A DNA stretch of 55,712 bases, from positions 1 to 55,712 of the forward strand of contig PWJA01000176.1 in assembly GCA_003560975.1 (NCBI GenBank), written 5' to 3'. The notes below the pieces were generated by a model. The model did no database searches, was not told the DNA's origin, and saw only the letters and a program-made list of their open reading frames with translations. The first letter of the stretch is position 1; every line of letters begins with the position of its first letter. The DNA is from Gammaproteobacteria bacterium (GTDB taxonomy: Bacteria; Pseudomonadota; Gammaproteobacteria; Xanthomonadales; Wenzhouxiangellaceae). Positions 1 through 8,001 of the stretch are shown here, one piece after another. A program made the position numbers and the translations under genes.

Positions 1-335
1 CTAGTGGGCCATGCGGCTAATTAGGTAACGCTCAGAGTCACTGTGCTGGCGCGAATCAAGGCGCGTTCCGCAGGGAATGGCCAGCCCTTTCCAAGGAACG
101 CAACGCCGAGTCGCGCCAGCACAGTGGCTCCCGAAGGGCCGTCGCACAAGCGCCGTGGGCAGGGCAGGCGAAGCGGCATGGCGACTTTCGCAAAGCGAAT
201 GAAGCCTTGCAAGCGTAGCCGTTGCCCGTGTTCCGCTCGCTTGAATTGGCGACGGCCAGTCCTGCGCTCGCGCGCCTTGCCCACAACGCTTGTGCGACGG
301 CTGAGCGTTACCTAATTAGCCGCATGGCCCACTAG
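1..335. mobile_element. MITE-like / nested palindromic element with perfect 35-bp terminal inverted repeats
   Basis: ctagtgggccatgcggctaattaggtaacgctcag (1-35) is the exact reverse complement of 301-335. Internal inverted repeats at 39-54/111-126 (cactgtgctggcgcga), 138-152/287-301 (gccgtcgcacaagcg) and 155-161/278-284. No credible CDS inside. The left edge coincides with the window start, so the element could extend further. Confidence 0.7.
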
Positions 336-886
336 AGCCGAATGCCGACACCGATGCTGAAGCGGGTCTGCGATTGCCAGCGGCTGACGTCGGCTGGCCA
401 GAGATGAAGGCGCTCGCCCTGAAGAACCGGGTGGCGCAGCTCGTACGCGTCGACGGCCAGGGTTTCCAGGCCCTCGACCGTGCCGAGCACGGTCAGGAAT
501 CGACCCGGCACATACTGAGCCGGCTCCAGAAAGCCCGGATAGCGCAGCACGAAGCGAACCCCGGGTTCCTGATGGATGCGCGGTCGATCGCCCCGGTCGA
601 GCGGGTAGCTGACCACCGTCAGTTCGGTTTGCTCGGCGAGGTTGCGGATCGAGGCGATGCGCCCGCCCCAGATGACGCGATCGCCCGGCCCGGCATCCCC
701 GCTGAGCACGTGAGCGGGACCGAGATCGACCACCTCGCCGTTCTCGGGTGCCACGGGGCTGCGCGCACAGGCCGTCGCCAGAAGCAGGGCCAGCACCATG
801 GCGCCGCCACGCCGGGCAAGCCCGTGCATGCGGCTTTTTCCCCGCGGCCGGACGCTGGCTGCACGGGGCCGCTCAGTCATCGGCAC
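332..886 (-). CDS. Slp/YeaY-family outer membrane lipoprotein
   Basis: Lipobox LLLATAC; Slp-like pattern VIWGGRI..N...T.LTVVSYPLD..DRP......FLEP..Y.PGRFLTVLGTVEG. Translation may start at an internal Met (~829). Confidence 0.82.
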   Translation of the reverse strand: MPMTERPRAASVRPRGKSRMHGLARRGGAMVLALLLATACARSPVAPENGEVVDLGPAHVLSGDAGPGDRVIWGGRIASIRNLAEQTELTVVSYPLDRGDRPRIHQEPGVRFVLRYPGFLEPAQYVPGRFLTVLGTVEGLETLAVDAYELRHPVLQGERLHLWPADVSRWQSQTRFSIGVGIRL

Positions 887-1964: not shown

Positions 1965-2305
1965 GCAATGACTTGTTCATGAAAATCATCGAACGCGAAA
2001 TTCCGGCCGACATCGTCCACGAGGATGATCGGGTGCTGGCCTTTCGCGACATCGATCCGCAAGCACCGACCCACGTTCTGATCGTTCCGAAAAAGCGCAT
2101 TCCGACGCTCAACGATCTTGGGCCCGACGACGCCGGCCTGATCGGTGAAATGGTCCTGGTCGCCCGCGACGTGGCCCGCGCGGAAGGTCTGAGCGAGGAT
2201 GGCTATCGTCTGGTCTTCAACTGCAACCGCGACGGCGGGCAGTCGGTGTACCACATCCACCTGCATCTGCTCGGCGGACGGCGGTTGACCTGGCCGCCGG
2301 GATAG
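1961..2305 (+). CDS. hinT: Histidine triad (HIT) nucleotide-binding protein
   Basis: VYHIHLHLLGGRRLTWPPG, the canonical HinT HxHxH C-terminus; overlaps the SDR stop. Confidence 0.95.
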   Translation: MSNDLFMKIIEREIPADIVHEDDRVLAFRDIDPQAPTHVLIVPKKRIPTLNDLGPDDAGLIGEMVLVARDVARAEGLSEDGYRLVFNCNRDGGQSVYHIHLHLLGGRRLTWPPG

Positions 2306-2330
2306 TGGGCCACGCGGCTAATCAGGTCAC
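2303..2330. repeat. Diverged copy of the 1-335 element terminus
   Basis: tagtgggccacgcggctaatcaggtcac versus tagtgggccatgcggctaattaggtaac (25/28 identical by eye) in the convergent hinT/MFS gap. Confidence 0.65.
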
Positions 2331-7500: not shown

Positions 7501-8001
7501 GCGCCGGGCGAACTGGCCCGGCTGCCAGACCTGGTCCGACGGGCGGTAACCGGCGTCGATCAGATCCTGACGGAAGCGATCGCCGTCGATTCGTTCGCCC
7601 GCGGACAATCTCAGGCTCTGTCCGCGTATCCAGCCGGCCGGGGGAAGGCGTTGCATCAGCGCGGTTGCCGGAGCGATGACGACGCCTCGATCCAGTCCGG
7701 GAAGGCGGGCCAGCAGCTCCAGGCGCCTGGAAATCAGGTCCGGGTGGGGTGAGTAGAGGTCGTAGGGCAGGGTTTCCCAGTCCGGAAACAGCTCCACATC
7801 CGGGCCGTCGACCTGGCGCAGGTCATCGCGCAGCAAGCGCGCGCTGTATCCGTCCGCGGCTGCGACCAGAACGGGGCCGCCCTTGCGGCGGGCCACCGCG
7901 GCGATGGCCAGAGCGAGGGCCAGGCCCTCGAGAAACGGCCAGTCCTGCCGCTGGTCGGCTGTCGCGTGGGGCGGATTGAGTACGGAAAACGGCGCAGTCA
8001 T
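4579..8001 (-). CDS. mfd: Transcription-repair coupling factor
   Basis: CarD-like RNAP-interacting domain (LVHLEHGIGRYLGLE), helicase motifs GDVGFGKTEVALRAAF, DEEQRFG, TATPIPRTL. Start MTAPFSVLNPP preferred over the ORF start at 8070. Confidence 0.97.
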   Translation of the reverse strand: MTAPFSVLNPPHATADQRQDWPFLEGLALALAIAAVARRKGGPVLVAAADGYSARLLRDDLRQVDGPDVELFPDWETLPYDLYSPHPDLISRRLELLARLPGLDRGVVIAPATALMQRLPPAGWIRGQSLRLSAGERIDGDRFRQDLIDAGYRPSDQVWQPGQFARRGAVIDLWPMGQSLPFRLELFDDEIESIRSFDPESQRSIEKLERLDLLPGREFPFDESARKEFRRRFRNRFDVDLRRALPYKEVGEGVAGQGLEQYLPLFFDHTSALTDFLPRAHRLIVLAGVEEAAAEHGRQIALRHEQRSGDAERPTLNPEELFFGAADLHGQLLARASIRVTRRQPASATARTPVAVDFDQQPDAAVTTLLQKNRRVLLAADTPGRRELIADSLRAQGLKPRLLNSWAAFVSGTDALAIAVLPVSSGVELESDGIAVLGEAELFPGHARTIRRERRTGQDPESMIKSLADLQAGALVVHLEHGIGRYLGLEVLDVGDGRGEYLALEYEGGDKLYVPVTDLDRVSRYTGADPDMVSLHRLGSDQWKKTRRKAAEKVRDVAAELLNLQAQRASRSGHSYELDRGLYARFAAGFEYEETDDQQSTIDAVLADLASDQPMDRVVCGDVGFGKTEVALRAAFAVAESGRQVVMLAPTTLLAEQHYRTFRDRFADWPIRIELLSRTGKQAAATLAGLADGKVDIVIGTHRLLQRDVKLRDLGLVIVDEEQRFGVRQKERMKAMRAEVDLLTLTATPIPRTLNMAMAGLRELSIIATPPARRLAVKTFVSEWDTATIRDAVMREFQRGGQVYFLHNEVKSMPRMAAELAELFPQARIGTAHGQMPPGEMERTMRDFYARRINLLVCSTIVENGIDVPTANTIIINRADKFGLAQLHQLRGRVGRSHHLAYAYLFTPPRQAMTRDALKRLEAIQSMEELGAGFTLANHDLEIRGAGELLGEEQSGQIEAIGFSLYSDLLNRSVEALKSGQEPDLDEPLAFTSEVDLHVTAMIPPEYLPDVHQRLVLYKRITQAADARALHDLQVEMIDRFGLLPIEAKQLFATAELRLGARRLGMRRLEIGPAGGRVEFTSKPNIDMAELIHMIQKESHTFELPASERLRIKGELEDPQARYDLAVELLTRLDSRKKAA

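Follow-up and report, generated by a model that had tools for sequence, protein, structure and literature searches.

The window analysed here, 55,712 nt in length, is contig C184 in its entirety and belongs to a draft genome of 3.08 Mb in 286 contigs. As listed in Table 1, its left edge carries a palindromic element of 335 bp, which is followed by the gene of an outer membrane lipoprotein and, further on, by a lone related end adjoining a gene for a HIT-domain protein; this lone end is probably a decayed copy. The first-pass annotation, which was made from the letters alone, had attributed to the element perfect 35-bp terminal inverted repeats, further inverted repeats inside, the capacity to fold from either strand and the lack of any credible ORF, and these descriptions were borne out. 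Over the full 35 nt, positions 1-35 show 100% complementarity to positions 301-335; bases 1 and 335 belong to the target, and the duplicated TA occupies 2-3 and 333-334. The interior repeats are real and form parts of longer ones, 35-57/108-130 (91%) and 138-171/268-301 (85%). The predicted folding energies were -234.1 kcal/mol for the plus strand and -229.2 kcal/mol for the minus strand (z = -19.0 and -17.3, respectively), values that were equalled by no shuffled sequence, and the frames of 87 and 90 aa inside the element are mechanical ORFs with no gene-like sign.

Table 1. Features of the element and its surroundings in the window
Feature	Position	Strand	Evidence or remark
Element, very probably an IS630-type MITE	1..335	.	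CTAG target; transposon proper 4-332
Left terminal inverted repeat, TAGTGGGCCATGCGGCTAATTAGGTAACGCTCAG	2..35	+	2-3 are the target TA; outer 15 bases common to the autonomous IS in L242
Arm A, palindromic, CAAGGC...AACGC on + strand	35..130	+	Stem; covariance model R1 43-121, 84.5 bits, E 1e-24
Mini-hairpin separating arm A from arm B, CCCGAAGGG	130..138	.	Sequence; CCCnnnGGG in 33/40 pairs
Arm B, larger palindrome, motif on - strand, extra nested insert	138..301	-	Stem; R1 210-293 (-), 37.2 bits, E 2e-9
Right terminal inverted repeat	301..334	-	Exact reverse complement of the left; 333-334 are the target TA
Slp-family outer membrane lipoprotein gene	332..886	-	TAG stop completed by the element's terminal base; ORF; PF03843 113.9 bits
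Single related end, TAGTGGGCCACGCGGCTAATCAGGTCAC	2303..2330	+	Begins at the TAG stop of the HIT-domain gene

The element starts exactly at base 1 of its contig, which leaves its left flank unseen, and many further contig ends in the same genome (G000) stop within copies of it. Both facts would suit an explanation that had been raised at the outset, namely that the mirrored ends are an assembly artefact of the contig end. However, full copies with both ends, 91-96% identical over query positions 1-335, sit inside contigs of other genomes, for example at G006:C22:8512-8846 and, in a genome assembled as a single contig, at G018:C1:3616329-3616663. The mirrored ends are for that reason taken as real, and the chance that they are an artefact is practically nil.

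The element is present in many copies. The 335-bp sequence aligns 46 times in its own genome (both strands counted) at dispersed places, and it was matched in 31 of the 61 genomes sampled, largely from the same genus or family. With a pattern made of the 20 bases that follow the C, two mismatches being allowed, we counted 23 terminal repeat ends in G000, 26 in G018 and 32 in G027; the reversed control pattern gave zero matches in the same genomes. The copies read out have intact ends and unrelated flanks, and their lengths range from 38 to more than 600 bp, most being 230, 268-269 or 329-334 bp. Thus the element is short and without a transposase gene, with terminal inverted repeats, dispersed copies and variable flanks, as is typical of a MITE. 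A search of plasmids with the 335 bp returned one single end in Salinivibrio and nothing else, and no match to phage sequences was obtained. At the lower end of the size range, two derivatives of 38 and 49 bp (L125 1507-1544 and L140 1541-1589, respectively) contain little beyond two joined ends; they show how MITEs in these genomes shrink to REP-sized palindromes.

Nearly all of the ends are preceded by C, which gives a C-TA-G junction. Two copies lie in other targets, TTAG (L095) and CTAA (L103), in which the outer base is altered on one side only and the inner G is kept. These targets fit a duplication of the 2-bp TA and contradict a 4-bp duplication of CTAG, which was rejected. The target duplication that had been predicted is therefore assigned as TA, on the evidence of other copies, the left flank of the window copy being unassembled. 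The expected empty site was also found: the site homologous to that of the copy L108 is free of the element in G009 and G029, with no more than one TA where the flanks meet. The sequences compared are 86-88% identical and their alignments are gapped close to the junction, so that these comparisons alone cannot separate a TA from a CTAG duplication.

Single ends, together with palindromes that have an imperfect hairpin in the terminal inverted repeat, look REP-like at first sight, and a REP-like element had been one of the identities first proposed. The repeat would then be of the REP/BIME type and mobilised by a RAYT (Y1) transposase. Yet no Y1_Tnp gene (PF01797) was detected in G000 and none in G003, both of which have copies. 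Moreover, the element is bounded by terminal inverted repeats and TA duplications, and an IS630 partner has the same ends. Mobilisation by a RAYT is hence highly improbable. An IS200-like Y1 gene within one G018 copy is a nested insertion and was dismissed as the mover.

The end pattern was scanned in one genome per species and was found in at least Wenzhouxiangella, Candidatus Thiodiazotropha, Lysobacteraceae, Microbulbifer, Haliea, Reinekea and others among the matches listed. In Haliea sp. E1-2-M8 (L242 5735-6882), an autonomous IS of 1,148 bp is bounded by the same ends, TAGTGGGCCATGCGG; its protein of 357 aa scores 278 bits with the NCBIfam model transpos_IS630 (cut-off 100) and matches Pfam DDE_3. 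Comparable ISs occur in Microbulbifer (L226) and Thiogranum (L212), and the ends of a sister MITE family (TATTAACCCGG...) are common to IS630-type ISs of G027 and G033. Taken together, the dispersed copies with the same ends, the variable flanks, the TA duplication, the empty site and the same-ended autonomous IS630-family element uphold the first proposal of a MITE moved in trans, and we concluded that the 335-bp element is very probably a non-autonomous MITE mobilised by an IS630-family transposase. The transposase, of the Tc1/mariner superfamily, would cut and paste the MITE in trans via its 34-nt ends, and in this model the insertion target would be the TA within CTAG. Because the arms are absent from the autonomous ISs, so that the internal sequence is not IS-derived, the element is, as judged from sequence comparison, better described as mobilised by IS630 than as a deletion derivative of it.

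Neither the genome of the window nor its genus yielded an IS630 transposase associated with these ends. Draft assemblies can miss ISs, and the window copy may be stranded or may depend on ISs that are absent from the draft assemblies. Two candidates from G018 were rejected as well: the ends of its IS630 (L148) do not match, and a 'long' copy of 4.6 kb (L104), considered as an autonomous version, holds IS701-type (DDE_5) and IS21-type insertions and a second MITE. In the latter (L104 2124-6124), the IS701-type insertion lies in the terminal repeat of the copy with an apparent TTAA duplication and is itself broken by an IS21-type IstA/IstB pair. Another IS630-family IS, with a transposase 49% identical and other ends (CACTCGTGTACC...), was seen in G034 (L293 1460-2625), where it adjoins CTAG-bounded repeats; it is a possible mover of the TAGTGTACCCCGCC MITEs.

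The transposition behaviour described above has known counterparts. ISY100, a member of the IS630 family, duplicates TA (PMC2170065), and Tenzen and Ohtsubo (1991), to whom the same paper refers, name in their title a preference of IS630 for the TA in 5'-CTAG-3'. The element resembles this family in its TA duplication, its CTAG preference and its partner IS in L242, but differs from it in having no transposase gene and in having arms, which the autonomous ISs do not. RUP of Streptococcus pneumoniae is likewise a MITE with TA at its ends, for which IS630-Spn1, having common terminal repeats, is the proposed mover (PMC2229807). However, RUP is 107 bp long, and the review reports no other structure or function signatures for it, hence no described two-arm core or CAAGGC...AACGC motif. 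An IS630-mobilised MITE as such therefore has a precedent, and the novelty would lie in the core.

The interior of the element follows a plan that recurs in other MITE families of these genomes with different ends. In the shared plan, an end of 33-34 nt, which in most cases closes in TCAG, is followed by arm A, the CCCnnnGGG mini-hairpin, arm B and the second end, and each arm holds an invariant CAAGGC...AACGC motif between covarying stems. We aligned 14 arms from six end types, with family 1 represented in two host lineages. Identity is about 34-36% in the outer stems but reaches 83% in the 5' motif CAAGGC(GCG) and 88% in the 3' motif nAACGC. Pairing was observed in 83.7% of the cells versus 54.7% after shuffling; 20 of the 24 pairs have changed on both sides, with a covariation score of 0.715 versus 0.194 for shuffled and at most 0.24 for slid alignments. 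The arms CB, EB and GB bear the motif although they had been included only as partners of arms found by the motif.

With the covariance model R1, the arm was detected in 90 of 232 gammaproteobacterial genomes (about 39%), in 83 of 197 genera, and in 59 of the 199 genomes of a phylum-wide draw that included other classes. Neighbouring arms run + then - in all 40 of the 40 non-redundant pairs, so that the first arm met from either end has CAAGGC on the sense strand; 36 of these pairs have TA-bounded terminal repeats and 33 have the CCCnnnGGG mini-hairpin between the arms. The two-arm core stands behind about 14 different terminal repeats, and the coupling of ends to core is incomplete: terminal repeats 65-69% alike enclose cores 83-87% alike, and conversely, in Thiodiazotropha, terminal repeats 85% alike enclose cores 68% alike (the baseline for shuffled cores is about 53%). 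The plan is also present in the complete records of an Azotobacter chroococcum plasmid (NZ_CP010421.1), a Halomonas (NZ_CP040452.1) and Pseudomonas aeruginosa (NZ_CP017294.1), in none of which an annotated feature underlies the matches. No arms were found in autonomous IS630 ISs, no curated covariance model of Rfam matched the first 3 kb of the window or 13 loci with other such elements, and no description of multi-arm IS630 MITEs was met in the literature searched, which leaves out most subscription papers. We concluded that the two-arm MITE core is a conserved and widespread structure which, to the extent of this search, is undescribed.

Several further observations concern the relatives of this element. 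A second MITE family with the two-arm plan (TATTAACCCGGCACGAATGTAGATC...; L104 1546-1830, and also L095, L098 and L105) has inserted with TA duplication inside family-1 elements; IS630-type ISs with matching ends occur in G027 and G033. A different palindromic repeat bounded by CTAG (CTAGCCCGCATTATTCATGAAT...ATTCATGAGTAATGCGGGCTAG), seen at L113 1357-1525, is genus-wide and directly adjoins family-1 copies several times in G027. At L312 and L315, lone motif-bearing arms lie beside TAGGGA.TCTCTGCACGAATC and are perhaps a further element type without the usual bounding repeats. Within the window, a weak R1 match at 7844-7899 (17.5 bits) falls in an mfd-like gene and was discarded as a probable chance match.

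To read the strand on which the arms are maintained, we used the fact that a stem pair decayed by a transition appears as G.T on one strand and as A.C on its complement. Counted on the CAAGGC strand, the distinct events were 78 G.T to 20 A.C in 37 clusters (25 clusters to 3), in a set that is somewhat biased because G.U pairs count in the score of the model used to fetch it. The loci that were not fetched by the model gave a modest asymmetry, 31 G.T to 13 A.C (p 0.0096; 9 clusters to 1). Control hairpins without the motif at the same loci gave 148 G.T to 137 A.C. Since G.T exceeds A.C on the motif strand, unlike in the control hairpins, the bias suggests a role at the level of RNA or ssDNA, with selection probably acting on the CAAGGC strand in single-stranded form.

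The core is a conserved module of arm A, mini-hairpin and inverted arm B, common to many MITE families with different ends, and is no remnant of the transposase gene. The arms most likely act single-stranded, as RNA or ssDNA, the CAAGGC...AACGC internal loop would be a putative recognition site for some factor, and the inverted arrangement would make the function independent of the orientation of insertion. That the core is a single-stranded recognition element working in either orientation is offered tentatively. The wider proposal is that of an undescribed, widespread and orientation-proof RNA/ssDNA module with a conserved CAAGGC...AACGC recognition loop; many different IS630-type ends throughout the Pseudomonadota would have carried and exchanged it, and a conserved factor of the host or of the transposon would read it. 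This proposal is also possible, though short of probable. The arms might equally be functionless, an inert stuffer tolerant of palindromy that has spread by transposition and exchange between families, in which case the shared motif would reflect common ancestry only. A single ancestor of all arms is possible, the uncoupling of core and ends makes recombination between MITE families plausible, and the deletion derivatives of 38-49 bp exist; against these points, the motifs have stayed at 83-88% while the outer stems have fallen to about 34% identity, and the compensatory changes, the fixed arm orientation and a G.T bias missing from the control hairpins are unexpected under drift. We regard functionless arms as conceivable but not probable.

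The position of the element behind genes bears on the same question. A TAG stop that serves as target is restored on either side upon insertion, because the terminal base of the element is G and follows the duplicated TA, and the element can thus lie directly behind the gene. According to heuristic ORF calling, such stop-codon fusion occurs in 17 of 38 copies, and the neighbourhoods of the 38 copies are convergent in 12, tandem in 10, divergent in 4 and inside ORFs in 12. CTAG is itself about tenfold depleted in the window (1-55712), with 17 occurrences versus about 183 expected from base composition.

The first-pass annotation had named a structured 3'-UTR RNA as another identity. We kept this reading, which is compatible with the MITE reading, because of the stop-codon fusion at this locus and the strand-specific G.T tolerance of the arm stems. 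In its strong form, the element would now be mainly a 3'-UTR RNA element of the adjoining gene, a stabiliser, an RNase site or an attenuator, with mobility secondary. The fused stops, the excess of convergent over divergent neighbours (12 to 4) and the strong RNA folds speak for it, as does a precedent in Neisseria, for which RNase III processing of MITE hairpins has been proposed (PMC2229807). However, the rarity of CTAG, the target choice of IS630 and purifying selection may by themselves suffice for the stop-codon placement, no intrinsic terminator with a T-run was found at the element, and about one third of the copies lie within heuristic ORFs. The strong form thus appears rather unlikely, and the element is still read in the first place as an IS630-mobilised MITE.

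Some other bacterial repeats resemble the element in part. The Correia/NEMIS elements of Neisseria are TA-ended MITEs with folding transcripts and are proposed RNase III substrates, but according to the review (PMC2229807) they form an armless stem-loop by end-to-end pairing. The CIR repeats of Caulobacter and Brucella have a predicted RNA with two arms and a linker, but are described without an end-to-end terminal stem and are MITE-like only in part (PMC2229807). The MRSC-65-2 motif is likewise a high-copy, covarying mobile or repeat motif in bacteria for which the RNA or DNA level is unresolved, but it has one long stem with UYCCGG repeats and no two-arm MITE core (PMC11109978).

In the usual view, a MITE is an insertion sequence that has decayed and that encloses filler. 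In the present case, a core motif and its plan are kept behind about 14 end types, with arms missing from the autonomous partners, in about 39% of the sampled gammaproteobacterial genomes. Two questions thereby become open to experiment: whether the cores of MITEs are modules under selection, able to outlast their transposases and to exchange one for another, and whether repeats that follow stop codons in bacteria are read as RNA whichever way round they lie.
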